Positions 16,976 to 61,700 of a stretch of DNA of 64,000 bases are shown here, piece by piece. The notes under the pieces were generated by a model that was given only the letters and a program-made list of their open reading frames with translations, searched no databases and was not told the origin of the DNA. Numbering within the stretch: the stretch's first letter is position 1; each line of letters opens with the position of its first letter. A program made the translations under genes and the position numbers. Origin of the DNA: a virus; IMG/VR virus record IMGVR_UViG_3300043449_001175, positions 1-64,000 of that record. The stretch is one strand, 5' to 3'.

Positions 16976-17565
16976 ATTTCTATTAAGGTTTCAATTTTTT
17001 TATCCAAATCTTTTAATGTGGTAATAGTGTGTTCACACTCCGTTGTTAAATTATAGGATGTTTCGTATTTTATTAAAGTTTTGTTTTCAGTTTGTATTAA
17101 TAAATCAGGATTTGATGTTAATAGAATATCAAATTCGTCCCATATTTCATTTTTTGTTAGCTGATTATAAAATAATACTTTTTCAATCTCACAACCAAAT
17201 TTTGATATAAAAAATAAAGTTGCTGGTTTTGTTTTTCCAATTTGTTTTGAAATTAATAAAAACTTTACATTATCTTTGTATTTTACAATTAAATCATTTA
17301 AATCATAAAAGGTAGACATTTCACTTGATGGTGAATGACCAAATATTTCCATTGCAAATTCTTCATACATAAAAGACAAATACTCTTCATCTGTTTTAAA
17401 TTTAAAATGGTTTGAATATTCGGGCGTATTATAGGGTGTGACAATTTCATATTTAAAATCATCATCAACTAGTTCTAATTCATCAATAAAATATTTTTGA
17501 TAAATCTGTTCTATCTTGGTAAAAGTGTCTCTTAATACACCATCAATGTCTATTGCAATTCTCAT
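16972..17565 (-). CDS. HAD-superfamily phosphatase, deoxyribonucleotidase-like
   Basis: 197 residues. Motif I DIDGVLRD has the nucleophile Asp at 6 and acid/base Asp at 8; motif II is the Ser in FLLISKQ; the Lys in GKTKPATLFF is a motif III candidate; DILLTSNPDLL fits motif IV, although the second Asp is weakly placed. The small size fits 5'(3')-deoxyribonucleotidases, which dephosphorylate dNMPs. A role in nucleotide turnover would fit the nearby dUTPase. Sugar-phosphate phosphatase is the alternative, given the glycan genes. Confidence 0.72.
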   Translation of the reverse strand: MRIAIDIDGVLRDTFTKIEQIYQKYFIDELELVDDDFKYEIVTPYNTPEYSNHFKFKTDEEYLSFMYEEFAMEIFGHSPSSEMSTFYDLNDLIVKYKDNVKFLLISKQIGKTKPATLFFISKFGCEIEKVLFYNQLTKNEIWDEFDILLTSNPDLLIQTENKTLIKYETSYNLTTECEHTITTLKDLDKKIETLIEI

Positions 17566-18314
17566 TCTTCGTATTTACTTAAAATTTGTGAAATCAATGG
17601 GTTTCTAACGATATCTTTATCATTAAATTCAAAAACACCAATATCGTTTACACTTTTAAATTTTTCAATTGCGTCCCATAAACCTGATTGTGTTTTATCT
17701 TTATATCTGTCAGTTTGTTCTAAATCACCTGAAATAAAAAACTTACTTTTAAAACCAATTCTTGTTAATAAAAGTTTCATTTGTTTTGGGGTACTATTTT
17801 GAGATTCTTCAAAAATTAAAATTGAATTGTCAATGTTCATACCTCTCATATATGCCAAAGCAAATACTTCGATTGCTTCAATATTTTTTAAATGTTCTCT
17901 TTTATCTTTACCTATAATTTTATTTAATAGATAGTAAGATGGAAAAATATACGGGTCTAATTTTTCCTCAACATTACCTGGTAAAGCTCCAAGTTTTTCT
18001 TCAGCTTCAACCGCAGGTCTAACAATAATAATTTTTTCATACGGAGTTGTTGGGTCTGCAAGTAAATCCACAGCCGCTTTCATCGCAATGTAACTCTTAC
18101 CAACACCAGCCGGACCTGAACATATGACTATTTGATTTTTTTGTAATAAATCATAATATAATCTTTGATTTTCGGTTAAAAATTTTTCTTTTGTTGGTCT
18201 TGAAATTATAGATGTGATAATTTCTTTTTTAGATTTAGACGTAAATTTTGTATCTCCACTAAAAATAGTTGGTTTTGTAGAAACAGTTGGTTTCTTTCTT
18301 GGTTTTTTTTCCAT
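17562..18314 (-). CDS. phoH: PhoH-family ATPase
   Basis: 250 residues. Walker A SGPAGVGKSY (Gly67-Ser74), and ILIFEESQN (169-173) in place of the usual DEAQN Walker B, followed by FFISGDLEQTD as sensor motif. A basic, disordered N terminus of about 40 residues (KKPRKKPTVSTKPT) precedes the ATPase core. PhoH is common in T4-like and marine phages; its job is unclear (RNA-linked ATPase or helicase-like). EES instead of DEA is a conservative change and should not abolish ATP binding. It overlaps the HAD gene by 4 bp. Confidence 0.9.
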   Translation of the reverse strand: MEKKPRKKPTVSTKPTIFSGDTKFTSKSKKEIITSIISRPTKEKFLTENQRLYYDLLQKNQIVICSGPAGVGKSYIAMKAAVDLLADPTTPYEKIIIVRPAVEAEEKLGALPGNVEEKLDPYIFPSYYLLNKIIGKDKREHLKNIEAIEVFALAYMRGMNIDNSILIFEESQNSTPKQMKLLLTRIGFKSKFFISGDLEQTDRYKDKTQSGLWDAIEKFKSVNDIGVFEFNDKDIVRNPLISQILSKYEE

Positions 18315-18351
18315 TAATTATAATTTATGAAAATTAATGATAAAAGAAACA

Positions 18352-19422
18352 TTAAAAATTAACGTATACTCCTTTAGGCGATGTACCTTGTTTAAAGAAT
18401 TTTACTTTTTCACCAAAATCAAAAATTAATTCTTTAACTACTTTCATGTTTTTTATAAATTCATCACTTTCAATAATGTAGACAGTGTAACCTTCTTTTA
18501 AAAAGTCTGACACCAATTCAGATTTTGGTGATTCTGTAATATCAATAGACATGTCTTTATATCCAATACCTGTAAACACAAAAGGTATTGTTTTGTCAGG
18601 ATTTAAATTTATAAAATGTTTTTTAATAAATTGATGATGATTTAAATTAAAATCTTCATTAACAAATGGTAACACAAAATCTAATTTGTTATCATTGGAC
18701 ACTTGACCTAATACTCTATTTTCTGTTGGGACCCAAGGACCACCAACACCAAATCCAAAATTAAAATTATTATTGGATATTGATTTATTATATCCTAAAC
18801 CTTTAAGTAATAATTTTGTTTCATCTGAAGTTCCACAATTTAACATTAATTCACCTATAAAATTGGCAAAATTAATTTTATTATGGATAAAAGAACTATG
18901 GGCTAATTTGTAAATTTCGGCAGACTTACTTGTCATTGAAATGACATTCAAATTTTTATTTTGTTTTGGTTGGAATATGTCTGTAATTGTATTAATTACT
19001 TGTAAATCAAGACTACCTATTACCATTGTTTCTAAGTTGATTAGAGATGATAATATGTTGTCAGACTCAACAATTAGAGGGAGGTAACAAACACTCAAAT
19101 TCATTGGGTTTAATATCTCCATAATTTTTTTAGTGTCACCAGGATTTAATGTGGAACATATGACAAATGTTTTATTATATAATGGAATTTCATCTTCAAA
19201 TGAAATTCCAAAATCTTCAACCACATTCATAACATTTTTTATGTCTAAAAAATTTGATGGTAAAATATTTGTATCAACACAACAAAAAATAACATCTGAG
19301 TTTTTTATGACTTCAACGTTATCACCATCAACATCAGAAACATAAATTTCATGTTGTTGTTCGGATAAAAAATTTAATAAATTTAGACCTAAATTACCAA
19401 CTCCAATTATACCAATATTCAT
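18352..19422 (-). CDS. UDP-sugar dehydrogenase-like protein lacking catalytic Cys
   Basis: 356 residues. Rossmann motif G7-x-G9-x-x-G12 and a central helix matching the family (KLAHSSFIHNKINFANFIGE, with Lys172 and Lys182) place it in the UDP-glucose/GDP-mannose dehydrogenase family. The active-site loop, normally GxGGxCFPKD, reads GFGVGGPWVPTE (223-234) with Trp230 in place of the catalytic Cys. A normal two-step oxidation to a uronic acid is therefore unlikely. It may be a one-step dehydrogenase, a binding protein, or have another reaction. Overlaps the GT11 gene by 4 bp. Confidence 0.82.
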   Translation of the reverse strand: MNIGIIGVGNLGLNLLNFLSEQQHEIYVSDVDGDNVEVIKNSDVIFCCVDTNILPSNFLDIKNVMNVVEDFGISFEDEIPLYNKTFVICSTLNPGDTKKIMEILNPMNLSVCYLPLIVESDNILSSLINLETMVIGSLDLQVINTITDIFQPKQNKNLNVISMTSKSAEIYKLAHSSFIHNKINFANFIGELMLNCGTSDETKLLLKGLGYNKSISNNNFNFGFGVGGPWVPTENRVLGQVSNDNKLDFVLPFVNEDFNLNHHQFIKKHFINLNPDKTIPFVFTGIGYKDMSIDITESPKSELVSDFLKEGYTVYIIESDEFIKNMKVVKELIFDFGEKVKFFKQGTSPKGVYVNF

Positions 19423-20201
19423 ATTTTAATCCATTTATCACAATATAAGTCATTAGTATTTAAATGTGAATTAGAAATACCAAACCATTTAGATGGAATA
19501 ATTACTTGTTTATTTTCATTATTATTTAACCAAGCTCCCCACCAACTAAATGTTGAATTGGCAATTATATTGTTTTTACACATAGACATTAAATACAAAT
19601 CCTCATAATCTTGATTACCTGATATAAATGTTTTGTTATTTAAAAAACTAAAATTTTCTTCACACCATTTAATATCGTCAGAAAATATAACATAGTGTTT
19701 ATCTTCACCAATAAGTTTAATTGCGTCTGTATAATATTCAATTGGTTGAGTTGGGTGATATGTTGGTAACCCTAAATAATCACCTCTTCTAACATGAATT
19801 GAACAAGTATCGTCATTTATAATATTTTTATATTTTTCTAATAAACGAGTATTTGTTTCATTATCAATTTCAAAAAGTTCTAACAATTTATTTCTGTAGT
19901 TTATAAAATATTTTTCACTTTGAAAATGACCGATTAATTTAATGTTACCCTCAATTTTTGGTATAGGTGTGTAGTGAAACCCACCTTCACCAATATGTTT
20001 TAAATTTACTAAATTATCTAAAAATTTTACATTTCTAAAAATATTATCAATGTAAATTGTGTATGGTTTGTGGGGTGATTGTGTGTCTGTTATATCACAT
20101 ATCATTTCTTTTTTATCTCTTAATGACACACTATACGTTGCAGCAATTTGAAACAACATATTTCCCAACCCTCCCATTAATTTAGATGATACTATTTCCA
20201 T
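19419..20201 (-). CDS. GT11 fucosyltransferase-like (alpha-1,2)
   Basis: 260 residues with all landmarks of GT11: the N-terminal LMGGLGNMLFQIAATYSVSL, HVRRGDY (136-142, GDP-fucose binding), FSDDIKWCEENF, and the C-terminal block DLYLMSMCKNNIIANSTFSW followed by WGAW. Known members transfer fucose from GDP-fucose to galactose in surface glycans. No GDP-fucose synthesis genes are seen here, so the donor would come from the host. It overlaps its neighbours by 4 and 10 bp. Confidence 0.93.
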   Translation of the reverse strand: MEIVSSKLMGGLGNMLFQIAATYSVSLRDKKEMICDITDTQSPHKPYTIYIDNIFRNVKFLDNLVNLKHIGEGGFHYTPIPKIEGNIKLIGHFQSEKYFINYRNKLLELFEIDNETNTRLLEKYKNIINDDTCSIHVRRGDYLGLPTYHPTQPIEYYTDAIKLIGEDKHYVIFSDDIKWCEENFSFLNNKTFISGNQDYEDLYLMSMCKNNIIANSTFSWWGAWLNNNENKQVIIPSKWFGISNSHLNTNDLYCDKWIKI

Positions 20202-20893
20202 GAATCTAAATAATTTTTGTTATTAACATGATTTATTTCTTTCCAAATGTCTTTATTGTATAATGAACTAATTTGATGTTGGTGTACCCTGTTAGTCACT
20301 AAACAATTAGAAAGTATTGTAGGTAAACCATATCTAACATACAGTTGATGGTACATGTCACAATCCATTAACATTGTTAAGTTTTCGTCAAAAAGACAAG
20401 GATTATAATTTCTAAATGATAATACAGACGGGGAACTAATTGTATTTACACCTTCTTTAATTCTGTCGTTCCAACGTGGTGTCATTTGGTTTGAGTGAGT
20501 TAAACCATCATCATGGGTATGATTACATCCACACACCAACCACATACACTCATTGTTTTCAAATTCCTTTGAAATTAATTCTAGTGCCCTTTTGTCATAC
20601 AAATAATCGTCTTGAAATATAATTTTGATAATATCTCCATCAGCATTTATAATTGAGTTGTTAGTGTTCGCGGGACCATTACCTAATAAGTTTTTATTTT
20701 TAAAATATTTTATTTCAAATTTAGTAGAATATTCGTCACATAATAATTTAATTTTGTCATCTTTACTGTGGTCGGATATTATGACATTAAAATTTTTATA
20801 TGTTTGAAATAATAAAACCTCAAAGTTATTTTTCAAAAATTCAACTCCTTTACCATATTGTTCCCATGTAGGTATACAAATTGATATTTTCAT
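20192..20893 (-). CDS. GT2 glycosyltransferase
   Basis: 233 residues. Starts MKISICIPTWEQYGKGVEFL, the classic GT2 strand-loop, then NFNVIISDHSKDD, and IIFQDDYLYDKRA (around 91-100), where FQDD is the DxD-like metal-binding site. The C-terminal part holds DCDMYHQLYVRYG. Overlaps the GT11 gene by 10 bp. Confidence 0.87.
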   Translation of the reverse strand: MKISICIPTWEQYGKGVEFLKNNFEVLLFQTYKNFNVIISDHSKDDKIKLLCDEYSTKFEIKYFKNKNLLGNGPANTNNSIINADGDIIKIIFQDDYLYDKRALELISKEFENNECMWLVCGCNHTHDDGLTHSNQMTPRWNDRIKEGVNTISSPSVLSFRNYNPCLFDENLTMLMDCDMYHQLYVRYGLPTILSNCLVTNRVHQHQISSLYNKDIWKEINHVNNKNYLDSWK

Positions 20894-20894
20894 T

Positions 20895-21542
20895 TTATTT
20901 TTTCTTTAATAGAAAAATACTATTGGAATCAAAATCAGTAAAGTCTTTTAATAAATCATATGTTAAAGTCCCAATAATATCGTATTCTTCCGTATTTAAT
21001 TTTGAGACAATTTCATTTACTGCACCATGTACTTCGGGGCTATATTGAAAATCTAAATAATCGTCAAATGCTATGTATCCACCACTTTTAACCAAACCAA
21101 TATAATTATAAAAATCGTTTAACACTCCATTTGTAGTGTGGTCTCCATCAATAAATAAAAAATCAACTTCATTAATTTCACTTTTAATTTGGTTAACTAT
21201 ATTAATATCTTGGGAATTACCTTGAAAATATTTAAAGGTACTTAATTCATTTTTAAAATTTGCAACATTTCTTTGTACCACTTCAGGATTAATGGGTTCT
21301 CCTAAATCCAAAGTAAAACAATTTGTTGGGTATATATGTGATGCAATTAATGAAATTGAGCCGCCAGCAAATGAACCAATTTCTAAATATGTTATTGGTT
21401 TATCACCAAATTCAGTTCTAATATCATATAAAATATGTGTGTGTTTATGGAATGTGGTGCCTTCCATGGTTTCAGAAATTTTATTAAGTTTTATTAATGA
21501 TTCTTCTGTTATTTTAAATGTATAATTGTTATTTTTGTTCAT
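20895..21542 (-). CDS. Class I SAM-dependent methyltransferase (family 24 type)
   Basis: 215 residues. The SAM-binding motif YLEIGSFAGGSISLIASHIY, VDFLFIDGDHTTNGVLNDFY and SGGYIAFDDYLD are the signature of methyltransferase-24/CmcI-type enzymes, often O-methyltransferases in sugar and surface-polymer pathways. It overlaps the next GT2 gene by 14 bp and is 1 nt from the previous one. The substrate is probably a hydroxyl on a cassette sugar, which is inference. Confidence 0.85.
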   Translation of the reverse strand: MNKNNNYTFKITEESLIKLNKISETMEGTTFHKHTHILYDIRTEFGDKPITYLEIGSFAGGSISLIASHIYPTNCFTLDLGEPINPEVVQRNVANFKNELSTFKYFQGNSQDINIVNQIKSEINEVDFLFIDGDHTTNGVLNDFYNYIGLVKSGGYIAFDDYLDFQYSPEVHGAVNEIVSKLNTEEYDIIGTLTYDLLKDFTDFDSNSIFLLKKK

Positions 21543-22233
21543 ATCCTTCTTCTAAATGTTTACATGTTATTTTATTAATTAAACAACCCGGTCTGTTGAT
21601 ACTTCTTAAATAATCAGACATTCTTTTCCATAAATCAGCATCACCCGGTAAACCAACGTTACCTTCTTCTTCATAAACATTTCTATGTCTTAAAGGAATC
21701 TCCTTAAAATTTATACATACCGATGAATGAATTAAACCTTCTGGTCTTGGGTAAAAGTCACAAATTTCATCAGTAGAATTTACCTCAGGTAAAACTCTAC
21801 CACCAACATAATGTGATTTTGTACATAACCATAGTGCTCCCGTTCTCTCAATTCCCATTTTAAGACTTGATAGATGATTTGGCTCCCATTCATCATCGTG
21901 GTCTAAATGACAAACATAATCATATCCCATCTCCACGGATTTATTTATTCCATAGTTATTTGCGGCGCAACCACCATATTTCCATACTAACCATTTATCC
22001 GTGTATTTGTCTCTTTCTGCAGCTACGGGTAAGTTTTCATAGTACATTCTTTCATTGTCATATGATGAACATATTTCCACAAATTCATCATTATTTTCAT
22101 ACCTGTCACCAATAACAAACACTTTAAAATTTTGATAATCTTGTGCAAAAATAGAATTTAATGCTTTTCTTAAATAAGATGGTGTTGAACCATCATTTCT
22201 TTGGTAGGTGGTAATTACTATACTAAAATTCAT
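21529..22233 (-). CDS. GT2 glycosyltransferase
   Basis: 234 residues. The N terminus MNFSIVITTYQRNDGSTPSY, FKVFVIGDRYENNDEF and CHLDHDDEWEPNH (DxD region at DHDDEW) are typical. Later, GLPGDADLWKRM resembles the GT2 catalytic-base region. It overlaps the PhyH-like gene by 4 bp. Confidence 0.89.
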   Translation of the reverse strand: MNFSIVITTYQRNDGSTPSYLRKALNSIFAQDYQNFKVFVIGDRYENNDEFVEICSSYDNERMYYENLPVAAERDKYTDKWLVWKYGGCAANNYGINKSVEMGYDYVCHLDHDDEWEPNHLSSLKMGIERTGALWLCTKSHYVGGRVLPEVNSTDEICDFYPRPEGLIHSSVCINFKEIPLRHRNVYEEEGNVGLPGDADLWKRMSDYLRSINRPGCLINKITCKHLEEGYEQK

Positions 22234-22961
22234 GATTTAGTTAATGGTTTGTAAATGTATGGATTAGGAAACCCTCTTTCGATAAAATTAGTTTCTAACA
22301 TATTAGTGAATCGGTAATGACAAGACCATCTAATGGTGTCGTTTGTTATATCACCTGACGAGTGTATCAAGAGTGTTGAAAAAATAACAATATCACCCAC
22401 TTCCATTTCAAATTGTATTGGTTCTCCCTCTATTTTTACGGAGGCAAAACCACCAACCGTGTTATAGGGTTGTGGACCTAATTTGTGAGTCTCAGGCCAT
22501 ATTAAAATTGACCCATTTTCTTTATTTACATCAACTAAAGGAACCCACACAACTAATGAGTCCATACTTGATAACATAGATGACCAATCTTGATGTGGGG
22601 GTGTTTTATAATAAACTTCTTCTTTTGCCAATTTAGGGTGATTAAAAAACAATACAGGTCGAGTACAAAGATTTGGTAATTCAATACCCAAATTTTTTAT
22701 TGTATCAATTAATTTTTCTTCAACAGGAAGTTTGTAAAGTTCAATTAATCCTGTTTGAATTATTTTACCACAGTTAATAAAAATTGATTCGTGTTCATTG
22801 AATAATTTTATCATGTTGTCTTTAAATTCACCATCATAACCAAATCTATCAAATTGTATTTGAAAAATTCTTTCGGCCCCTTTTCTTAAATTATCAATAT
22901 AATCTTTTTCAAAGAAGTTTTTAAGAATTACGTATCCTTTTTCTTTAAGTTGTTGTTGCAT
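22230..22961 (-). CDS. PhyH-family Fe(II)/2-oxoglutarate dioxygenase
   Basis: 243 residues. Iron ligands His123 and Asp125 in PPHQDWSSM, distal His200 in LLIHSSG, and Arg211 for 2-oxoglutarate binding in TIRWSCHYRF. The double-stranded beta-helix core strands (DSLVVWVPLVDVNKENGSIL) are clear. Such enzymes hydroxylate small molecules, lipids or sugars. In this cassette it could hydroxylate a sugar or its acyl chain. It overlaps the propeller gene by 17 bp and the GT2 gene by 4 bp. Confidence 0.87.
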   Translation of the reverse strand: MQQQLKEKGYVILKNFFEKDYIDNLRKGAERIFQIQFDRFGYDGEFKDNMIKLFNEHESIFINCGKIIQTGLIELYKLPVEEKLIDTIKNLGIELPNLCTRPVLFFNHPKLAKEEVYYKTPPHQDWSSMLSSMDSLVVWVPLVDVNKENGSILIWPETHKLGPQPYNTVGGFASVKIEGEPIQFEMEVGDIVIFSTLLIHSSGDITNDTIRWSCHYRFTNMLETNFIERGFPNPYIYKPLTKS

Positions 22962-23841
22962 AACCTATCCCCGTTTTACCAAAATTATTTCCATTATAAA
23001 ACATAATCATTTCATCTTTTTTATTAATAATAAATGGATAACATGTCATAATGTTATCCCATTCAGATTCTGTTGTAATATCTAAATCAATCTCATTGTT
23101 TTTAACCCAATCAACACCGTTTAACGATGTTGCGGTTTTAATTCGATATGAATGGTCAATGTTGTCTCTATAATTGATTTTGTCTCTAATAGAGTACCAC
23201 ATTTTATATTTACTTTCATTTACAATAACTCTACATGCAGATATACCACCTTCGTTATTTTCTAAAGGAATTGAGACAATTCCTGTCGGAATCCAATCAA
23301 TACCATTTAACGATGTTGCGTATTTTATATCGTAAGTTGGTTCCATCTTACCATCATGTTCAATCCAGTCCAAACAAGATAGATACCACATTTTCCACAC
23401 ACCATTTTCAATTAATATATTGACAGTGCCAATATAACCAGGTTCATCATGTGAAGTGTGAAAAATAGGTCCTTTAGAATATTTTTTCCATGTTTCTCCA
23501 TTATCTTCACTAATGGCTAAACCTAAGTTGTTGTGGTACGGCACATCTATTCTCAAAGACCAACCTATATAGTACATGTACTTTTTATTTTTGTGTGTTA
23601 CAATGTCCGTTGGCATAACTCCTGCCCAATCAAAAGAACCTTTATTACCTAAATTTAAAATAGGGTTAACCGACTCTTTTATTATTTTAGATGGGTTGGA
23701 TTTATCAACGTCAATATACATTGGGTTACTTTTACCATCAATTCTGGTTGAATAGTAGATTCTATAAAAATCATCATATTCATCAACTACAGGTAATTGA
23801 GCGTAATGTTTGTTAAAGATGTTACCTTTCTTTATCCACAT
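22945..23841 (-). CDS. Five-bladed beta-propeller glycosidase-like protein
   Basis: 298 residues from the ATG just after the upstream stop. The longer frame has 21 more residues but would overlap the acetyltransferase gene by 62 bp. Repeated blades carry the GH43/GH32/GH130 superfamily style: WAGVMPTDIV, KKYMYYIGW, GLAISEDNGETW, GVWKMWYLS, IKYATSLNGIDWIP, SKYKMWYSI, TATSLNGVDWV. The acids needed for hydrolysis cannot be assigned by eye. It may cleave or phosphorolyse a glycoside, or only bind glycan. Cytosolic, as no signal peptide is present. Confidence 0.78.
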   Translation of the reverse strand: MWIKKGNIFNKHYAQLPVVDEYDDFYRIYYSTRIDGKSNPMYIDVDKSNPSKIIKESVNPILNLGNKGSFDWAGVMPTDIVTHKNKKYMYYIGWSLRIDVPYHNNLGLAISEDNGETWKKYSKGPIFHTSHDEPGYIGTVNILIENGVWKMWYLSCLDWIEHDGKMEPTYDIKYATSLNGIDWIPTGIVSIPLENNEGGISACRVIVNESKYKMWYSIRDKINYRDNIDHSYRIKTATSLNGVDWVKNNEIDLDITTESEWDNIMTCYPFIINKKDEMIMFYNGNNFGKTGIGYATTT

Positions 23842-23842
23842 A

Positions 23843-24502
23843 TTAGTAAACTTCAATTGATTGTTTATCTTGTTTCTTTGCGGGTGAACCCATATATAAT
23901 CCATCTGCTTCGGTAGATTTTGTTATAACTGCACCCATTGCTATTAATGAACCCTCCCCAATAGTTAACCCATCTCTAATTGTTGAATTTACACCGAACC
24001 AAGCTCTTTCTTTAACATGACAATGACCTGATAACACGACATGTGACGTAAAAAACACGTGGTCTTCAATTTTACTATGATGACCAATATGGTTACCACT
24101 CCACATAACAACATTATCGCCAATTTCGGTAAACGGTTGTAATGTATTATCTTCTAAAATAAAACAATTTTCACCTATTTTGTTTCCACATATTGTTGCC
24201 TTTGAAGAAATATAAGAAATATAGGTATATCCTTTTTTCTTACCTTCTTCGTAAATTCTTTTTCTGTTGTTATTCATTTTGGTGCCAGTTATTGGTGCAA
24301 AAAACAAATATTCACTTGGTGAATATATTTTTTCTAATTTTTCAAAAGGTACTACTGGTAATCCTTTGAATTCCGTAACTGACATATAATCTTCATTTAC
24401 CGTGAATGCAACTATTTCATAGTTACTATCGTTAGTTAAATACCAATGTGTTAATTCTGCCAAATCATTTATACCAAAAACCACTACTTTATTTGTAAAC
24501 AT
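23843..24502 (-). CDS. NeuD/PglD-like sugar O- or N-acyltransferase
   Basis: The N terminus (FTNKVVVFGINDLAELTHWY, Rossmann-like) binds the nucleotide-sugar. The C-terminal half is a left-handed beta-helix of hexapeptide repeats (CGNKIGENCFILEDNTLQPF, ...IGDNVVMWSGNHIGHHSKIE, ...LSGHCHVKERAWFGVNSTIR) ending with GAVITKS and MGSPAKK. The His in the GHHSKI region is a catalytic candidate. Acyl-CoA acylation of a sugar amine or hydroxyl is the family role. Start uncertain: ATGs at 24532, 24526, 24517 and 24502 are in frame, and I use the last, which leaves a 14-bp overlap with the upstream gene. Confidence 0.87.
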   Translation of the reverse strand: MFTNKVVVFGINDLAELTHWYLTNDSNYEIVAFTVNEDYMSVTEFKGLPVVPFEKLEKIYSPSEYLFFAPITGTKMNNNRKRIYEEGKKKGYTYISYISSKATICGNKIGENCFILEDNTLQPFTEIGDNVVMWSGNHIGHHSKIEDHVFFTSHVVLSGHCHVKERAWFGVNSTIRDGLTIGEGSLIAMGAVITKSTEADGLYMGSPAKKQDKQSIEVY

Positions 24503-25100
24503 ATGTTGTGTATTCATATAATCCATACTCATTTCTTATTATAAAATTTCTACTTAAATTATTTTTTAAAAACCAACCCAATTCATCTAATGAAACATGA
24601 AATAAATCTTTACGTTCCCAATCAACATGTTTTGACATTAAATTAAAAGCAATTCCTTTATTACATTTATTCCATAATTTTTTAATGACACTTGTAAAAA
24701 AATCCATCATTTCTTCTTGTGATAAATCTCTTTTTTCTGTAAATGTCCCATTACACACTATATAGTCAAAATTTGGTATATTTTCATTTTTTAAAATATC
24801 TAAACGATAAAAATCATTATTTGGAAATTTTAATTTACAAGTATTATAGAACCCATCATTTATATCTAATCCCGAATATTTTATGTTTTTTATTTTTAAA
24901 AATTCAATACGTTGATTTAACGATGCTGTCCCACATCCAAAATCTAATAATGTAATTGGTGTTTTTTCTTTTATCGATTGAATCATAACATCATATCTTT
25001 TATATGTGTCTTCCAATTTTGGCCAATCAACACCTAAATGGGTGTCACCGTGTTCTTTAAAACATTTATCATAATGTTCCGCTAATTTTAAATAACTCAT
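24489..25100 (-). CDS. Class I SAM-dependent methyltransferase
   Basis: 203 residues. Motif I ITLLDFGCGTASLNQRIEFL, motif II NIKYSGLDINDGF, and FYRLDILKNENIPNFDYIVC give the Rossmann SAM fold. The closest style is methyltransferase-25/ubiE-like enzymes of surface-polymer clusters. The substrate is unknown. It overlaps the WbqC gene by 4 bp. Confidence 0.85.
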   Translation of the reverse strand: MSYLKLAEHYDKCFKEHGDTHLGVDWPKLEDTYKRYDVMIQSIKEKTPITLLDFGCGTASLNQRIEFLKIKNIKYSGLDINDGFYNTCKLKFPNNDFYRLDILKNENIPNFDYIVCNGTFTEKRDLSQEEMMDFFTSVIKKLWNKCNKGIAFNLMSKHVDWERKDLFHVSLDELGWFLKNNLSRNFIIRNEYGLYEYTTYVYK

Positions 25101-25765
25101 ATTAATTTATAATTTACAATTTGTTTTTGAATGTGTGATTTGTCATACCTAAATAACAAATCCAATATTGATGAATTTTTGTTATCAAAATCAACATTAC
25201 CCATTTTTATAAAATTTAACTCAATGTTATCATTTTTAAAATCTTCTTTATTATACAAAGATTGACCACCTATTGCATTTATATATACATTTGAACCAAA
25301 TTGTTTTGTTATTGATTTTAATCCTTCTTCTTTTTTTAAAGTTGTTAATCCATTTGAAGTGTTTATTATTTTGGTTTGTATATCTAAATAATTACATATT
25401 CTTTTTATTAAATTTAAATTAAATTCAGATATTGTTACTTCTCTATTAATGAATTCTGGTAATATTATATCATTCAAAATAATATTATAATTTGATTCTT
25501 TTGAATATAAATTTTTTAATGTTTTTAAAAAATTAAAAATGTAATTATTTTCAAAATTTACATATATTTCATTACATTTTTTATTTTGACTAGCTCCCCA
25601 AACATTTACATTTATTGGTGTATTATTTTTCAATATATTTCTCGTCATATAACTTCTTTTCATAAATGATACATGGTCTAAATTTACATACGTATTGACA
25701 CAATGTATAAGTTGAAAATACCCAATATATGGAAAAAAATATGGTTGCATTATCCCAATTTTCAT
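25097..25765 (-). CDS. wbqC: WbqC-family protein
   Basis: 222 residues starting IMQPYFFPYIGYFQLI, the unmistakable WbqC signature, with HVSFMKRSYMTRNIL further on. WbqC proteins are found in O-antigen and capsule loci, usually near aminotransferases and acyltransferases; they are thought to act in N-acylation of amino sugars or related glycan chemistry. Adjacent to the DegT-like and NeuD-like genes, which matches that setting. Start codon ATG, A-rich upstream. Confidence 0.92.
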   Translation of the reverse strand: MKIGIMQPYFFPYIGYFQLIHCVNTYVNLDHVSFMKRSYMTRNILKNNTPINVNVWGASQNKKCNEIYVNFENNYIFNFLKTLKNLYSKESNYNIILNDIILPEFINREVTISEFNLNLIKRICNYLDIQTKIINTSNGLTTLKKEEGLKSITKQFGSNVYINAIGGQSLYNKEDFKNDNIELNFIKMGNVDFDNKNSSILDLLFRYDKSHIQKQIVNYKLI

Positions 25766-25794
25766 ATAAAATTAGTTTCTGTTTTTGAATTTAA

Positions 25795-26436
25795 TTATTG
25801 TTGGTAGACTTTAAATTTTGATAAATCCGGATAACGTAATTCTAAATCTTCATTATGTTTTGGTGTGTTGGTTGCGGTATCGTAAAATTGTGAAATTAAC
25901 AACAAACCTCTCGACGCTAATTCTGGCATCATATAAAAATTCCAACCAATAACCGGATTAATGTCAAAATCATCATTGTGATAACTACATTCATCCCTAC
26001 CACTAAATCTTGCTTTTTTAAACCATTTATATGCATCTTCATTGTCGGTCAATATTGCACCACCTTTACTTAATTTTAAATGTTTGTATGGTCCTGTGAA
26101 TGAAACACACATGTGAGTACCAGGAATATACATATTTGAGGTAAACCTAAGTGCACTATCCCAAACATTAGTTGGGTATAATTGGTATGCGCCTTTAATT
26201 GTGTCACCATCAACGGGTTTAAATTTAACTTTAGCACCTGCGTGAATTATTTCACACGGAACCGATGGATATGTTCTTGAAGGAATTTCAATTTCCATAC
26301 CAGAAACTTTTTCATATGTTAATGCTAAAAATAAAGCATTACTTTGATTATCAACGGTAACAACATATTTTGCTCCCGTATACTCAGACAATTTTTTTTC
26401 AAAATCTTCAGTTATTTTATGTACTCCTTGTGCCAT
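25795..26436 (-). CDS. Short DegT/DnrJ-type sugar aminotransferase homologue
   Basis: 213 residues against about 370 for the family. The N-terminal part fits: FEKKLSEYTGAKYVVTVDNQ, EIEIPSRTYPSVPCEIIHAG, then the PLP-lysine region LKLSKGGAILTDNEDAYKWF with a Lys in the expected place. The C-terminal domain that closes the active site is missing, and the chain ends with a stop at FKVYQQ. It may be a shortened enzyme, a partner of a host aminotransferase, or inactive. The family forms amino sugars such as 3- or 4-amino-deoxyhexoses. Confidence 0.8.
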   Translation of the reverse strand: MAQGVHKITEDFEKKLSEYTGAKYVVTVDNQSNALFLALTYEKVSGMEIEIPSRTYPSVPCEIIHAGAKVKFKPVDGDTIKGAYQLYPTNVWDSALRFTSNMYIPGTHMCVSFTGPYKHLKLSKGGAILTDNEDAYKWFKKARFSGRDECSYHNDDFDINPVIGWNFYMMPELASRGLLLISQFYDTATNTPKHNEDLELRYPDLSKFKVYQQ

Positions 26437-26459
26437 TATTTGTAATATATATTTTTTTT

Positions 26460-27986
26460 TTAAAAATCATCTGTATTAAAAAATAAATGTTTTAATTTAT
26501 TAAAATTATTCATAACAAAAGGACCTAAAAAATTTTGATAGTCAAAAATTGTTTTTTTATTTTTTTCTTCAGAGTCATTTCTGGTTTGTGATTCATAATG
26601 GTAGGCCACAGATTTACCGGATAAAAAGTTTTCGTATCCCAACAATATACACCTTAAATTAAGCTCAACATCCTCAAAACACTCTGTATAGTTTTCATTA
26701 TAACCATTTTGTTTTTCAAATAAACCCTTTTTAATCATTAATAACGCTGCCGTGCTACCAATTACATTTTTTGTGTAAGGAGTGTATGAATAATACGAAT
26801 GAAGTGCCGCATGAGTAACACCAAATTGTTTATCTTTGTTTAGGTAACACAAAATACCATTATGTTGAATAGTATTATTTTCATAATGCAGTCTAGCTCC
26901 TACAGTACCAACTTTATTTTTACTCTTATAAATTGATAACATTTCAAAAACAACATTATTTAAAACTTTAATATCGTTATTAGAAAATAATAAAAATTCA
27001 AAGTCCTCAGTAACATAATTTTTTACAACATCATTATTAATTTTTGCAAAATTATAGTAGTCATACTCAATTAAATGAATTTTACATGTAGTTTCATGAT
27101 TTTTAATAAACTCAAGTGTTAATTGTTTTTCTTCGTCAGTTGACCCAGTATCGGCAATAAACACTTCAAATAAATCAGTGTTGCAATGTTCAATATATGA
27201 GTTAATACAATTAAACAATAAATCTAATTTACCTTTTGTTGGTATAATAATGGCGACTTTGCCAGTATTTTTAAGAGGCTTTTCAATTATCTTTTCAAAA
27301 TAAACACTCTCAGGTTTTAAATCTAATGGTAAGTGTTCACCATATTTTTGTAAAAAAACTTCTTTAGATAAATAAAATTCATCATTTGGTTTACCAATTG
27401 ATTTATGAGTTATTTCAAATGAAAAAGTAACACCAAGTTTAACACCATCTAAATAATTTGCTAAACAAAATGGGTGGTCGTAAAAATGGTATTTACCAAT
27501 AGTTTCATCAAACGTATGTTTTATTTTTGTTTTATTAAACGCCATTATCAAACCATCTATAGTTACCACAGGTATTAAAAATGGTACTTTAGCTGAGTAT
27601 TTATTAATCCACTTATTTTGACCATCAGGGTGATGATAAACGTGACCAACCATTGTAAGAGGAGCTCTCTCCCAATAAACACCTGATTCAGGAAAATAAC
27701 AAGAACCGGCTTTACCAATAATTCCATAATCAGGATTATTTTCAAAGTCTTTTATTAATTTTTTACCCCAACCTTGTTCTAATTTTACATCATTATGTAC
27801 ACATACCACAATATCATATATTGATTCACCAATACCTCGGTTATAGATTTGTGCCAATGAAAACTCATTATTATTTTGGTATTCTAAAATTTGTGTATTT
27901 TTTAAACCAACAGTTGTTTCTAAATGTTTTTTAAATACAGAGTTGTATTTGGCATCTTTGTGTGTGGAATATATAATGGTAATCAT
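26460..27986 (-). CDS. Two-domain glycosyltransferase (tandem GT-A domains)
   Basis: 508 residues. The N-terminal domain (about 1-225; MITIIYSTHKD, YDIVVCVHNDVKLEQGWGKK, VPVVTIDGLIMAF) looks like the stand-alone 'glycosyltransferase-like' family. The C-terminal domain (about 240-500; VAIIIPTKGKLDLLFNCINS, LLFSNNDIKVL, GSTAALLMIKKGLFEKQNGY, CFEDVELNLR) is a classical GT2. Both have D-containing metal sites (HNDV and NNDI). The two domains may add two successive sugars, as in bifunctional polymerases. The stop is followed by the DegT-like gene. Confidence 0.88.
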   Translation of the reverse strand: MITIIYSTHKDAKYNSVFKKHLETTVGLKNTQILEYQNNNEFSLAQIYNRGIGESIYDIVVCVHNDVKLEQGWGKKLIKDFENNPDYGIIGKAGSCYFPESGVYWERAPLTMVGHVYHHPDGQNKWINKYSAKVPFLIPVVTIDGLIMAFNKTKIKHTFDETIGKYHFYDHPFCLANYLDGVKLGVTFSFEITHKSIGKPNDEFYLSKEVFLQKYGEHLPLDLKPESVYFEKIIEKPLKNTGKVAIIIPTKGKLDLLFNCINSYIEHCNTDLFEVFIADTGSTDEEKQLTLEFIKNHETTCKIHLIEYDYYNFAKINNDVVKNYVTEDFEFLLFSNNDIKVLNNVVFEMLSIYKSKNKVGTVGARLHYENNTIQHNGILCYLNKDKQFGVTHAALHSYYSYTPYTKNVIGSTAALLMIKKGLFEKQNGYNENYTECFEDVELNLRCILLGYENFLSGKSVAYHYESQTRNDSEEKNKKTIFDYQNFLGPFVMNNFNKLKHLFFNTDDF

Positions 27987-27992
27987 TCTATT

Positions 27993-28592
27993 TTACTTTA
28001 TTCCAGTACTACCGAATCCATTATCCCCCCTATCTTTACCTAAAATTTCAGAAACTTCAATAGGGTTTATCCATCTACCATTTGCTACAGGACAAACACA
28101 AGCTTGAGCAATTTTTTGTCCCTTTTCTACGTAAACGGTATCATGAGTTGAATTATATAGAATAACTTTAACTTCACCATCATATCCTGAGTCAACGGTT
28201 CCAGGTGTGTTTAAAACGGTTAATCCTTGTTTTAATGCTAAACCACTTTTTGGTCTAACTTGAATTTCATAACCGTCTTTAATATTAAACTTTAACCCTG
28301 TTCCAACCAACATTCTTGACAGTGGTGGAATACCAATACTTTCTGTTGAGTGTAAATCGAACCCTGAGTCTGTGGGGTAATTATATTTTGGTGATACTGC
28401 ATCGGGATGACATTTTACAAATTTTAAATCCATCTTTGGGTTTTTTTCAGAAAATGTTTTTTCTAATTCTTTAAGATTAACACCACTAATTTCTTCAACA
28501 CCAATTTCATTGTTCATTTCACCTTGTAGTTGTTTTAATATGTTACTTAGCTCTTCTTGTAACAAGTCCATTTCATCGTTTTCGTTATTCAT
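27993..28592 (-). CDS. dut: dUTPase
   Basis: 199 residues, trimeric dUTPase type, with the five motifs in order: DSGFDL (75-80), RPKSGLAL (113-120), NTPGTVDSGYDGEVKV (128-143, catalytic Asp and Tyr), GQKIAQ (158-163) and RGDNGFGSTG (188-197, P-loop-like). It hydrolyses dUTP to dUMP and pyrophosphate, keeping uracil out of phage DNA and supplying dUMP for thymidylate. The first ~53 residues are a helical, acidic extension not found in standard enzymes. Placed between glycan genes and the exonuclease. Confidence 0.96.
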   Translation of the reverse strand: MNNENDEMDLLQEELSNILKQLQGEMNNEIGVEEISGVNLKELEKTFSEKNPKMDLKFVKCHPDAVSPKYNYPTDSGFDLHSTESIGIPPLSRMLVGTGLKFNIKDGYEIQVRPKSGLALKQGLTVLNTPGTVDSGYDGEVKVILYNSTHDTVYVEKGQKIAQACVCPVANGRWINPIEVSEILGKDRGDNGFGSTGIK

Positions 28593-33178: not shown

Positions 33179-36007
33179 ATGGCTTATCAGAACATTAACC
33201 AATATGTCTATAAAAAATGGTTTTTATCACCATTTTTAGAAGTTACGGACCTTTCTTTGGCTTCAGATGAACGAGATTATAACGAAGAAGTTATTTTTTC
33301 GCCATATATTATTGGAGCATATGATGGTGATGTATTGCCAGTTAAATTTGATATAAATTTTACAGGAAGTAATCAAAATTTTTCATTAACATACGGAAAT
33401 TATGATTTTGATAACATTTTAGTATCCGAAAATTACTACAACCCAACTGATGTTTTAATAGATTGTTATTCTTCAAAAACAATTTGTGATATTGGATTAA
33501 CAGGTACTGATAACGGATTGGTTACTGGAATGACAGGTCAATCAATAACTTATACAAATGGTTTGTTACCAACAAATGAAAAATTTGATAGATATAAATT
33601 TGATAGGAGATTAAAATTACACCAAGTTACTGGTTACACGTGGACTCCAAACACAAGATTTTCAGGTGTAACGGCAGGAACAGTTTATGATGTGGTATCT
33701 TACAGCGCTCAAACTGTTGGAAATTACCAAGAATTGTATGGTGGTTTTTATCAAGGGTTTTATGAGTTATTTGGTTACGATTATAAAATTTTACCTGAAA
33801 GATATCCAAAAGGGTGGACGGTAGAAATGACTTTAAAGCCGAGATTGTCCAATGCTTATACTCCAAGTTCAGGACAAACAACATTAAATCAATATTACCC
33901 AAATAATGCTGGTATTTTCTTTTATATGGGTACAAGGGCTGAAAATAAATATTGGCACCACGCAGCAGGAACAAATTCAGGCGACCCATCATACTATAGA
34001 ATCACAACACCACTAACAGGTTTAACAAGTTGTTTTTGTGTTGATTTATATCCTAATTATACAACATCGTCAACTACGGTATTTGATTTAACAACAAGCG
34101 GTGAAACATTAACAGTATCTTCAGATTTATCATGGGTTTCAGGTGATACCGCATTAATATATCACGATGATGCACAATATCTTATTGGTACTGTTGTTGG
34201 TTACACATCTGAAACAGGGAATTTTCAATTTGTAACAACAAAACGAGTTGGTTTAGGAACTATATATTTTTCAATTGTAACTAATCCGGGTTATTTAGAA
34301 TATAACGATTCTAATTGTGTGTTAGTATATCCGCCAACAGGAACAACAGATTCACATACTCAAGTAGACCCTTGTTGTTGTCCTGAACCACCAGTTCCAA
34401 TTCCAGAACATAATCCTGAATATGATTCAATGTCAAACGCAATTGCAATTAAATTCAGTGGTGACCCACATAATCCAAAAATTTGTGTAAGAACTTTAAC
34501 AATAACAGGTGATTGTATTTTTTCGGGTTCTTGTGAAACATTGGGTCCTGATTCTGTTACTGGATATTCAATTAACAATTACTGTTCAGAAAGAGGAATT
34601 TACGATAATTGTAGTGGAACTACATACGATGACCAAGAACACTGGGTTTTGGTTGATGTCGTCTTTGAACGATACACGTGGTTAGATACCTGCGATTTAT
34701 ATTATCGTGGAGGTCTTGGAACAATTACAACATTTCCATATACCGCAAGTACGGCTAATAATTCGGTTTCATTAATATCGCCACCAATCACACATTACGA
34801 ATTAATCCCAACAATCGAGGAACTTGTTGAATTAAATAATCTTTGGATATTAGAAAAAATATATCGTAGAGGTAGAATAAAGGTTTATATCAACGGTAGA
34901 ATATTTGATGTATTTGAAGATGTTGAAGAAATTATACCACGTGGTTTATTTGGTCATAAAGAAAATCAAGTCGGAGTACCATTCAATATATCTTGGGGTG
35001 GTGGTACACAAGGACTACACGAAAATTTAATTTTTAGTGCGGTACCAACCAATGATATAAATTACTATACTCAAGACCCTGAATTGTTTCCACCAAACAT
35101 TTTAAGTGGTACAACATTAAGTGGACTCACAACTAATATATTAATTGAACAAAATTTTGCCGGAACTTTTGATGGTGCGATATCAAAGTTTAATATGTAT
35201 GCAAAACCATTATCGGTTCCTGAAATTCAACACAATGCAAGAATTTTAAGACCAATTTATAATTTTTTAAATCCATATTGTTTAGATTGTGGTGCAAATG
35301 TAACACCAACCCCAACACCAACAACAACAGTTACACCAACACCAACCTCAGTTACTCCAACTCCAACACCTACACCATCGGTAACACCAGGTCTTTCACC
35401 AACACCAACCCCAACACCGACAAGTACACCATCACCTTATTTTGCATATCTATTTATAGAACCTCAATCAGGTTCAACTCTTATTGGTGAATACATGTAC
35501 AATTTGGGTTCAACATTCTATGGATTTACAAATAACTCAGCGCCAGACAATGACAACACAAATCCTGACTTATTCAATGATGACATGAATAATTATGTGT
35601 CTTTCTCAGGATGGAGTAATGGTTCATTCCCTTCAGTGAGAACTCAAACAGTTCCACAGTCTTCGGGTGGTGTTGATTCATTTGGTAATTCAATATCGGC
35701 ATATAATTTCACAACACACGAAGTACCAATTAATACAGTTAGTGGTAACTCTTGGTATACGTGGATTATCCCAAATGATGCGATAAATGATGGAATACAA
35801 CAAAAAATTGCTTATAGTGTAAATGGTAATCCAAACGCATTGACAACATCAATTATGGACAGCTCAATTTATTCTAGTACGTTTACTTATACAGGTACTA
35901 CAATTCCTGTTGGTACTTATAGAGTTTACACAACATTTGCTGACTTGTCATTCTATATAAATAACAACTTTAATACCGTATATTTTAAAGGTGATACTGT
36001 AATTTAA
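33179..36007 (+). CDS. Large adhesin-like virion protein with Thr/Pro linker
   Basis: 942 residues, no signal peptide. Residues 1 to ~700 are beta-rich with LamG/concanavalin-like features: GWTVEMTLKPRLSN, the FSGDPHNPKICVRTLTITGD region, IKVYINGRIFDVFEDVEEII, and FDGAISKFNMYAKPLSVPEI followed by QHNARI, the usual ending of such domains. Cys-rich patches (DPCCCPEPP; NPYCLDCG) flank. About 707-752 is a Thr/Pro linker, then a C-terminal domain (about 755-942) that may be a second carbohydrate-binding fold. The architecture suggests a tail fibre or surface adhesin binding host glycans. It shares its linker style with the Thr/Pro stalk gene. Confidence 0.78.
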   Translation: MAYQNINQYVYKKWFLSPFLEVTDLSLASDERDYNEEVIFSPYIIGAYDGDVLPVKFDINFTGSNQNFSLTYGNYDFDNILVSENYYNPTDVLIDCYSSKTICDIGLTGTDNGLVTGMTGQSITYTNGLLPTNEKFDRYKFDRRLKLHQVTGYTWTPNTRFSGVTAGTVYDVVSYSAQTVGNYQELYGGFYQGFYELFGYDYKILPERYPKGWTVEMTLKPRLSNAYTPSSGQTTLNQYYPNNAGIFFYMGTRAENKYWHHAAGTNSGDPSYYRITTPLTGLTSCFCVDLYPNYTTSSTTVFDLTTSGETLTVSSDLSWVSGDTALIYHDDAQYLIGTVVGYTSETGNFQFVTTKRVGLGTIYFSIVTNPGYLEYNDSNCVLVYPPTGTTDSHTQVDPCCCPEPPVPIPEHNPEYDSMSNAIAIKFSGDPHNPKICVRTLTITGDCIFSGSCETLGPDSVTGYSINNYCSERGIYDNCSGTTYDDQEHWVLVDVVFERYTWLDTCDLYYRGGLGTITTFPYTASTANNSVSLISPPITHYELIPTIEELVELNNLWILEKIYRRGRIKVYINGRIFDVFEDVEEIIPRGLFGHKENQVGVPFNISWGGGTQGLHENLIFSAVPTNDINYYTQDPELFPPNILSGTTLSGLTTNILIEQNFAGTFDGAISKFNMYAKPLSVPEIQHNARILRPIYNFLNPYCLDCGANVTPTPTPTTTVTPTPTSVTPTPTPTPSVTPGLSPTPTPTPTSTPSPYFAYLFIEPQSGSTLIGEYMYNLGSTFYGFTNNSAPDNDNTNPDLFNDDMNNYVSFSGWSNGSFPSVRTQTVPQSSGGVDSFGNSISAYNFTTHEVPINTVSGNSWYTWIIPNDAINDGIQQKIAYSVNGNPNALTTSIMDSSIYSSTFTYTGTTIPVGTYRVYTTFADLSFYINNNFNTVYFKGDTVI
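35300..35436 (+). repeat. Thr/Pro low-complexity linker repeat
   Basis: In-frame ACACCAACxCCAACA-type repeats encode TPTPTPTTTVTPTPT-like sequence of about 45 residues inside the adhesin-like gene. Sequence style is the same as the 42-bp stalk repeat at 5.5-6.3 kb, so modules may have been exchanged between the two genes. Confidence 0.7.
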
Positions 36008-58737: not shown

Positions 58738-61700
58738 ATGCCAAGTCGTTTAAGTTTTAGTGCTACGAAATTAAAAAGGGATGAGTTACTTTTAAGGAAC
58801 TTAAAACCTTACAATAAACCAGGTGTTTATACACCTGTAGGTAGTCCTGGAGTTAATGAATATATCAGAAGTGATTATTCAGTTATAGATTCCCCTGACG
58901 CATTAATTGATGCTGACCCATATGCAGACACACTATATACTAATAATGTCTTCGGACCTTTGGGTGGATACAACAAAGATATTAGTGGTTTAATTAATAC
59001 ACAACAAACATTATCAAATCAAGGTCCTTATACTCAAACACCACCATATACCGAAGCGTTACAATTATATTCAGTATCGTTTCAAAAAAGACAATACATT
59101 AAGAATGTTTATTCGCCAGGAAACCAGTACACCTATTATGATATGGGTGATGTTATTAAAGTACAAAAAAATGCTACTTATTGGGACCCACCAAGTTTTA
59201 GACCCTCATCATATTCACCATTTTCAGTTTTATTACAAGCCGACCCCGTAGGTGATAATGGTCTTGCTAGTGATGATTCAGAATTGGCTAGATTAGGTGT
59301 TAAAGGTGCAAAACAATCTTTTCAATATAGAGTTGACCAAAATGTTAGAACTCAAACATTAGGAAGAGCAAATATATTAAATGGTGTTAAAGACCCCGTT
59401 AACTTATCTTTAATTTTAGCAGGAAAACAACCTTTAATTTACAGAGATTGGAAAATTACGTCAGGTGGGGGTAATATTATATCACAAGGACAGGACATTG
59501 TTCAAAGAATTGCTGGTTTTACATTACCATTTTCACCAATACCAGGAAGTTATTACGAACAAAGAGATATTAATTCAACACAATCAGCCATCCGAGCGGC
59601 TGGTAACGGAAAACGTGGTGGATTATTTGGGTTGTTTGGTTCAAGACCAACATCACCATCACAAGTATTTTTAGATTATACAGGTTCAGGTCAAAGAGCT
59701 CAATTGACACAGAATTTGGATATGAACAGATTCCGACCACAATACAATACAGGTGGTACAGGAATTTTATCTGCTCTTGGAAATGCCATTACAGGAGCTG
59801 TTGCTAACAATGCCAGTCAAGGAACATATTATGTTGGTAGTCCTGAAAGGGAACCAGGTTATTTAACATCACCTCCTGGTGAGGTACCAATTGACCCATT
59901 TGGAGCTCAAGTATTAGCACCCGTTTACGGTCCTGATGTTTTAGGTAAAGAATACGAAGGTGTTGATAAAGACTTTAAATTTGGTTTGGCAGGAAAACCA
60001 TTTGTTGACGATGGTAGTATTGTCGGTGGATTTAGTTGGGTAAGTCAAAAGTGGGCACCAAACGCAGGAAGATATCAAAAACCTGGTGGTGATTATGGTG
60101 AACAAGACCCAGCATACCCATCAATATCAAATCAATTTACTGAAACACAATCAATAAAATATGAATACAAACCAGGTTCAATTTTAGATGATACCCAAAG
60201 ATTAATTGATTCACAACCAAACTCAGGTGCAAGATTTGGACACGTAGGTAATGCGATTGACCAAACATCAAAAGTGTTCTTTGATGGTTATAAAGAAATC
60301 ACAAAAGGTTCACAGATTATTAAGTATTCTGACGGACAAGCCAATGTTGGTATAGAATATTGTCGTGTTTTTACAAAAGATACACCATATTATACATTTA
60401 ACAATTTACAGAAAAGAGATGGAAATATTCGTAAGTTTTCATACTCTGTAATGGATTCAACCTTTAATATTAACATTGCACCTGAAAAAGGTGGTGATAG
60501 TATTGTTAATGGTAAAGTAAAAAAATACATGTTCTCAATTGAGAATTTGGCTTGGAGAACAGGATACAGAGCGGGTTATAGAGTGGATGATTTACCTGCT
60601 TGTGAAAAAGGACCTAACGGTGGTAGAGTAATGTGGTTTCCACCATATGATTTGTCATTTACTGAGGATACAAGACCTTCATTTAATGAAACAACATTCT
60701 TGGGTAGACCCGAGCCAATATATACCTATAAAAACACCTCACGTAGTGGTACATTGAAATGGAAGATGATTGTTGACCACCCGTCAATTTTGAACCTTAT
60801 AGTTAATAAGGTGTTGGCAAATGAAGGTGATAGACAAAAAGTTGATTCTATTGTTGATTCATTCTTTGCTGGTTGTAAAAAATATGATTTATATGAACTT
60901 GCAAAGATTTATAATACAGTACCATTAACTGATTTACAAGCTTGGCAGGAAATTATTACAAATCCTAACGCAACTAATGAAAACATTGTTGCCGCTTCTA
61001 AAGCTACCAATACTTCAGCAACAAACTCATTACAAGATGGGGGTACAACAGATGATGCCACAGGAAACCCAACTCTAAATGAATATAATGGTTTTGGTTT
61101 CTATTTTGATAATGATATACCAAGTCCAACTGCCGTTGCATACCAAACAACATATTCAAATTACACATCAACGTCAAATAAACAATTGTATAAAAATAAT
61201 TCAGGTGATGCACAAGTTACAACACAATTTTTTGATGGTGTGATTGAAGACAACTATAGTCAAATAAAAGAAATGGCTCAAAAAATGTATAATATTTTGA
61301 GTCAAAAACAGGCTAGTAGTATTGTTGTGACACTTGAGGCTAGTGCATCACCATCTGCACCAAAAGAATATAATGAAAAATTGGCGGCAAGAAGAGGTGA
61401 ATCAGTTATTGAATTTTTTAAAACATATAGTTTTGGTGCAAATAATAATTCGTTAGGACAATTCATTGGTTCCACACTATCATTTAATACTATTGCGAGG
61501 GGTGAAGCAACAAGTGTTACACCAAGAGGTAGACAAAGTTATAGTACTTATAATTGTTTAGATGATGCACTTAATGATGAGAAGTATACTACAAGAGCTA
61601 TGGCTTGTAGAACAGTCTTATTAAAAAATGTTGAGGTTAAACCAATTGAAAAAAATTCTGAACCAACTTCAACTGCAACTGAAAATAGTGCTGCAAACAA

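Follow-up and report, generated by a model that had tools for sequence, protein, structure and literature searches.

In PMC4794789, 18 residues are described as invariant among 229 nucleotide-sugar dehydrogenases, including the catalytic Cys (Cys260 in SpUGDH numbering). That paper and PMC3184952 give Cys260 and Glu141 roles in the acid-forming half-reaction; PMC3184952 also describes a Cys-to-Ala mutant in which the reaction from UDP-glucose is not completed, and the title of the PDB entry 3khu, human UDP-glucose dehydrogenase (UGDH) Glu161Gln with a thiohemiacetal intermediate, bears on the role of the Glu. Here, we present an analysis of a viral homologue of these enzymes in which Trp230 takes the place of the Cys. 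It is encoded in a stretch of 64,000 nucleotides (hereafter, the window), which is positions 1 to 64,000 of the 99,138-base IMG/VR virus record IMGVR_UViG_3300043449_001175. A Cys that is invariant in the 229 enzymes was lost at least three times in the phage family to which this protein belongs, and the protein is still under selection. We favor the reading, which we give about an even chance of being correct, that the window protein is a catalytically retired, NAD-binding protein with a UGDH fold, i.e., a pseudoenzyme, that serves the glycan island of the phage by binding.

The gene corresponds to exactly one open reading frame (ORF), which lies on the minus strand, starts with ATG, and encodes 356 amino acids; the plus strand of the same interval is full of stops. 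The protein exceeds the cut-offs of the Pfam profiles UDPG_MGDP_dh_N (PF03721; 36.1 bits versus 27) and UDPG_MGDP_dh (PF00984; 35.2 bits versus 25.4), by which it is a member of the UDPG/GMD dehydrogenase superfamily. It also matches PHROG_9148 ("UDP-glucose dehydrogenase") with an E value of 5.1e-44, and it scores 107.2 bits with the NCBIfam model TIGR03026 (NDP-sugar dehydrogenase), which is under the curated cut-off of 189.8. An AlphaFold2 model (mean predicted local distance difference test [pLDDT] score of 83, predicted template modeling [pTM] score of 0.73) points to a whole-length UGDH fold; its best VIA match is 6c4j (Z 24.6, root mean square deviation 3.7 Å, 315 aligned residues), and Foldseek matches it to 3vtf (E 8.4e-19). 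Based on a tail sheath match, the virus is predicted to be a myovirus.

HMMER pairs the loop GFGVGGPWVPTE with GFAFGGSCLPKD of Pseudomonas aeruginosa GDP-mannose dehydrogenase (GMD; 1mfz) and sets W230 on chain residue 268; for this reason, we place Trp230 at the position of the catalytic Cys. Cys268 we take to be the nucleophile of this GMD. Together with the Pfam assignment, this alignment bears out the initial annotation, which had described a UDP-sugar dehydrogenase homologue without the catalytic Cys and with a preserved Rossmann motif and central lysines: G7, G9, G12, and D30 are present, K182 is Lys in all 130 rows of the family alignment described below, and K172 (the Lys204 equivalent) is Lys in 126 rows and Arg in 4, all from near kin of the window protein. 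Many known active enzymes with the same change, which the annotation had named as evidence that would count against it, did not come to light: Cys260 is reported as invariant in PMC4794789, and the five PDB alignments displayed all have Cys at this position.

SpUGDH residue numbers were mapped through the family alignment, and the pairing was read from motifs and PDB alignments. On this basis, the window protein keeps 14 of the 18 invariant residues (Gly7, Gly9, Gly12, Thr83, Ser117, Thr118, Pro140, Glu201, Lys204, Asn219, Gly257, Gly258, Asn287, and Lys320), and the four that are lost all lie in the pocket (Glu141, Asn208, Cys260, and Asp264, replaced by Leu116, Ser176, Trp230, and Glu234, respectively). 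Among the functional residues that are not invariant, Tyr10, Arg244, and Lys263 are changed to Asn, Ser, and Thr. The change at Tyr10 is older, because Tyr occurs in none of the 113 Cys-bearing rows that have a residue there (Arg in 109, Lys in 2, and Phe in 2). Besides the three Gly residues, the kept NAD-site residues are T51 (Thr83), S90 (Ser117), and T91 (Thr118). Moreover, approximately 32 residues between β2 and αC, i.e., the αB-β3 segment, are gone in the clade of the window protein, with one locus (L028) retaining part of the segment in the alignment. Consistently, β3 (E62-64) is seen only in the model of a Cys-bearing relative (L039), which was built as a control from the same 24 rows. 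This control model (pLDDT 90.6, pTM 0.87) has no stretch under 50, while residues 218-230 are under 50 in the model of the window protein; this is weak evidence that the catalytic loop has lost order, because the alignment is richer in Cys-bearing relatives. The strand, the additional lost catalytic residues, and the missing αB-β3 segment go beyond the initial annotation.

We scanned viral contigs, phage records, and bacterial genomes and obtained 129 unique homologues, which together with the window protein make up the 130 rows. At the Cys position, 114 rows have Cys, 8 Trp, 5 Tyr, 2 Ile, and 1 Phe, two of the 8 Trp rows, the window protein and a refetched copy of its locus, being the same DNA. 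The Trp rows come from contigs of several separate metagenomes, arguing that the Trp is not an assembly error; chance and a frameshift were also ruled out as its source, with the ORF and the Trp recurring in relatives at 94, 89, 81, and 69% identity. In a tree of 123 rows, computed with the catalytic columns removed and after exclusion of fragments (<301 or >429 amino acids) and two near-copies of the window protein, the Cys-less rows occupy three positions: clade a, which is the clade of the window protein (Trp, Tyr, and Phe); lineage b (L073/L067; Tyr); and lineage c (L040 with Tyr together with L062/L124 with Ile). Approximately unbiased (AU) tests were run on 45 hand-picked rows, among them every one of the 13 full-length Cys-less rows in the tree; they rejected both a single Cys-less origin (p=0.0007) and one shared by b and c (p=0.0035). 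The Cys was lost three times independently. Two pattern scans for further Cys-less lineages, one for Tyr/Phe and one for codons at the Cys position whose first base is not T, returned 20 stretches, among which the family members were known contigs only, these scans leaving aside Trp outside the family and bacterial genomes. The distant phage-collection matches (H10-H12) all carry the Cys. We also note that a 326-kb contig with a Cys-bearing protein (G020) has a second, very divergent Cys-bearing UGDH-like copy (L123; GDGGGCHPRDN), and that the record OQ572407.1 (62573-64666; L263), an UNVERIFIED "Pseudomonas phage Y5," contains a GDP-mannose dehydrogenase that matches, at its start, the P. aeruginosa protein of 1mfz and that may be host DNA inside a phage record.

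The Cys-less protein is under purifying selection. The ratio of nonsynonymous to synonymous substitution rates (dN/dS; Nei-Gojobori) ranges from 0.06 to 0.21 across 15 Cys-less pairs and from 0.04 to 0.12 across 7 sampled Cys-bearing pairs, the ratios being rough for two pairs with dS >1.2. Conservation was assessed at 81 positions that are ≥97% conserved among 106 Cys-bearing viral rows. In lineage b, which has a short stem, all 27 such positions in residues 1-110 are kept, but 4 of the 8 PEF-loop positions and 3 of the 11 catalytic-loop positions have changed. A119, C230, and G246 are altered in every Cys-less lineage, and F117 and R233 in all except L062/L124. Clade a keeps about 19 of the 27 conserved N-domain positions, which weakens the case for a wholly intact NAD domain in that clade, even though the NAD-contact residues listed above are preserved.

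In Cys-bearing phages, a NadE-like gene usually lies directly upstream of the dehydrogenase gene; its product resembles NH3-dependent NAD synthetases (best PDB match 3fiu, 1.9e-40). Counting unique proteins with a readable context, 98 Cys-bearing proteins are accompanied by this gene and 12 are not, whereas none of the 12 Cys-less proteins is (context unreadable for 4 Cys-bearing and 3 Cys-less proteins). Counted by locus, with overlapping fetches of the same contig recounted, the gene is adjacent in 133 Cys-bearing cases, elsewhere in the locus in 7, absent in 14, and cut off in 4; for Cys-less cases, it is absent in 33 and cut off in 15. All of these association counts take related sequences as separate. 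Whole-record scans with PF02540 found no match in 20 Cys-less records versus matches in 4 of 8 Cys-bearing records, several of the records being near-copies or fragments. Lineages b and c have the same neighbors as their Cys-bearing sisters, a GT2-type gene followed by glycosyltransferases, with an empty NadE slot. When the tree is taken into account and L123 is dropped, all three Cys losses coincide with the absence of NadE and with the loss of the PEF motif. That Cys loss goes with NadE absence in related viruses hints that the protein now has another job.

We suggest that the ancestor would have been a phage nucleotide-sugar 6-dehydrogenase working together with an adjacently encoded, NadE-like ATP-dependent amide synthetase. 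The likeness of the latter to genuine NAD synthetases allows both NAD supply and amidation of a uronate as its role; because the gene sits within a glycan cassette, we favor amidation. In the lineage of the window protein, from which the NadE gene is absent, the acid-making parts of the sugar pocket (Cys260, Glu141, Asn208, Asp264, and Arg244) have been lost; in particular, the loss of Cys260 and Glu141 would have removed the acid-forming half-reaction, with the fold and the NAD-site and diphosphate residues remaining under selection. Today, the protein may act as a subunit, sensor, or scaffold for nucleotide sugars or glycosyltransferases. The initial annotation had held that the chemistry must differ from uronic acid formation. 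Judging from the sequence, uronate formation by the family mechanism is indeed not credible, with Cys260, Glu141, Asn208, and Asp264 altered and the NadE-like partner absent from 20 of 20 Cys-less records; a different chemistry, however, is possible at most, and a loss of catalysis fits better. The residues of the first step vary between the Cys-less lineages (Asp264 is replaced by Gly in L040, Asn208 by either Ser or Gly, and Lys204 by Arg). Because the pocket residues vary by lineage and no common residue replaces the Cys (Trp, Tyr, Phe, or Ile), a shared new reaction is less likely than a binding role. Marks of a pseudoenzyme found in the window protein are the lost catalytic residues, the fold kept in the model, and purifying selection.

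Several observations weigh against catalytic retirement. The Trp and its PTENR context are invariant throughout the Trp rows, which looks like function rather than drift. G7, G9, G12, D30, T51, and T91 are kept in all tabulated full-length Cys-less rows, so that redox chemistry could persist, and Asp264 (as Asp/Glu) and Lys204 (as Lys/Arg) are kept in most Cys-less rows, the Gly at Asp264 in L040 being an exception. We found no protein partner of the window protein. Three Cys-loss events are not enough for the link to NadE to reach statistical significance (sign test, p=0.25). Finally, the 12 Cys-bearing proteins without a visible NadE gene are counterexamples to a strict one-to-one rule; 11 of the 12 appear in our row list, including the L071/L072/L091 group and five loci on bacterial genome contigs (L133 and L135-L138), some of which have short flanks. 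The absence of NadE by itself does not imply loss of the Cys; because some Cys-bearing rows (L071/L072/L091) also have no NadE gene, its absence may precede Cys loss.

With its NAD-contact residues preserved, the protein could still perform a two-electron reaction, which we regard as possible, though on balance unlikely. The protein would then oxidize a nucleotide sugar with NAD+ once, giving a 6-aldehyde or acting at another carbon, the residues of the second half-reaction (Cys260 and Glu141) being gone. Consistent with this, two of the three lineages lost Cys260 and Glu141 together, as did part of the third, in which L040 retains the Glu; the Thr118 equivalent is conserved throughout and those of Asp264 and Lys204 mostly; and NadE, for which a carboxylate would be required, is absent. 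PDB entries whose titles bear on this reading are 3khu (thiohemiacetal intermediate) and 9dh0 (hUGDH with UDP-4-keto-xylose). However, the window protein lacks Asn208, L040 has Gly in place of Asp264, and clade a has lost Arg244, a residue that touches the glucose bound by the partner subunit. A bulky Trp, Tyr, or Ile would also be expected to crowd the C6 site. A more far-reaching and rather improbable scenario is that the dehydrogenase and the NadE-like synthetase make up an undescribed two-gene sugar uronamide route in T4-like cyanophages and their kin, and that without NadE, the dehydrogenase was repeatedly rebuilt, with removal of the acid-forming half-site, into an NAD-dependent two-electron enzyme or a nucleotide-sugar adaptor serving the current island cassette.

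It is very unlikely that a relocated thiol still makes the acid. C89, which is Cys in 8 of 8 examined clade-a rows (as are C47 and C48; C112 in 7 of 8), lies two residues before T91 and, in our reading of the alignment, at the position of Lys116, which PMC4794789 places against the Pro140 loop; moreover, L124 of lineage c has Cys at this site (Cys and Gly for the pair L062/L124). Yet the site is Gly in lineage b, L041, and L062, so that a thiol at C89 does not explain these proteins, and Glu141 is lost as well. Separately, two positions carry additional cysteines in the Cys-bearing phage relatives, that of Ser117 (101 of 114) and C177, and most Cys-less proteins have Ser/Thr at both; C177 is Ser in clade a, lineage b, and L062/L124 and is retained in L040. 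A possible function of these extra cysteines is a redox switch or thiol relay.

We see similarly little chance that the window protein joins the host's own UDP-sugar dehydrogenase and modulates it in a mixed oligomer. The predicted whole-length UGDH fold is compatible with this idea, and a PF00984 search detected no second protein of this family in the 295-kb and 233-kb records, so that any partner would have to be host-derived; the search likewise gave no Cys-bearing paralogue in 19 Cys-less records (G000-G018, of which the record of the window is a 99-kb fragment). Arg244, which reaches into the active site of the partner, is lost in clade a, however. Least probable of all is a decaying, functionless remnant, as suggested by the long stem of clade a (1.41 changes per column) and the missing αB-β3 segment, because the Cys-less copies have the low dN/dS ratios given above and open frames, and the gene persists in contigs as long as 295 kb.

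The gene lies in a variable glycan island bounded by dUTPase and PhoH genes (Table 1). The PhoH gene directly follows the Cys-less gene in 8 of 8 displayed clade-a loci, while the upstream neighbor varies in this clade, being a GT11 gene in the window and others in L007, L011, L028, L035, L016, and L017. The Cys-less protein outlives the exchange of the cassette and, therefore, fits a role that is not tied to one sugar. In a relative on a 295-kb contig (G004), two glycosyltransferase-like genes stand where the window has many genes (18315-27992), marking a cassette exchange site. The DegT/DnrJ-like aminotransferase of the cassette (25795-26436, minus strand) has just 213 amino acids and appears to lack the C-terminal domain, because Pfam aligns only residues 9-80 to positions 26-98 of the 360-position profile. 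Elsewhere in the window, two large proteins have no PHROG match, one of 942 amino acids (33179-36007, plus strand), which has no Pfam match either, and one of 1619 amino acids (58738-63597, plus strand).

Table 1. Positions in the window of the Cys-less gene, its notable residues, and the genes of the surrounding glycan island
Feature	Position	Strand	Evidence or content
UGDH/GMD-family protein without catalytic Cys	18352..19422	-	ORF, Pfam, PHROG_9148, PDB sequence matches, Foldseek/VIA
Catalytic loop GFGVGGPWVPTE, residues 223-234 (family GxGGxCxPKD)	18721..18756	-	
Trp230 codon, at Cys260 (SpUGDH)/Cys268 (GMD) position	18733..18735	-	
S176, equivalent of invariant Asn208	18895..18897	-	
K172, Lys204 equivalent	18907..18909	-	
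P115-L116-I117 (family P-E-F; invariant Glu141 is Leu)	19072..19080	-	
Junction V31-D32, ~32 family residues (αB-β3) gone	19327..19332	-	Alignment, models
Rossmann GxGxxG (G7, G9, G12), kept	19387..19404	-	
PhoH-like gene, conserved downstream neighbor of the Cys-less gene in clade a	17562..18314	-	Pfam
GT11 (α-1,2-fucosyltransferase family) gene, upstream, 4-base overlap with dehydrogenase start	19419..20201	-	
Rest of exchanged glycan cassette (no NadE-like gene)	20192..27986	-	GT2, methyltransferase, GT2, PhyH, DUF4185-like (under Pfam cut-off), hexapeptide transferase, methyltransferase-like ORF (by eye), WbqC, DegT-like, GT2-type ORF (by eye)
dUTPase, conserved far border of island	27993..28592	-	

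The link between the Cys and NadE predicts that NadE acts on the product of the dehydrogenase, forming an amide, or supplies its NAD+, and it would explain the presence of an "NAD synthetase" in cyanophage glycan clusters. The annotation "UDP-glucose dehydrogenase" is probably functionally wrong for the whole Cys-less branch. Among open-licence papers, in part represented by their abstracts, we found none on a Cys-less nucleotide-sugar dehydrogenase or on NadE as a uronamide synthetase.

The window protein resembles pseudoenzymes such as the trypanosome prozyme (PMC6221367) in that catalytic residues are lost and the protein is kept under selection; unlike in the prozyme case, the Cys-less records searched with PF00984 encode no active partner. 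With P. aeruginosa GMD (1mfz) and the UDP-glucose 6-dehydrogenases 3gg2, 3vtf, and 1dli, it shares the whole-length fold, as far as the model indicates, and the NAD and diphosphate residues; by contrast, it has other residues in place of the catalytic Cys, Glu, Asn, and Asp, and the identity is about 16-22%. Its closest described relatives are the cyanophage "UDP-glucose dehydrogenases" of PHROG_9148 (S-SSM7 YP_004324311.1, P-TIM68, and S-SCSM2R), which belong to the same phage family, are 33-35% identical, and likewise adjoin glycosyltransferase genes. Unlike the window protein, these cyanophage proteins keep the Cys, Glu141, Asn208, and the αB-β3 segment, and they have a NadE-like gene directly upstream.
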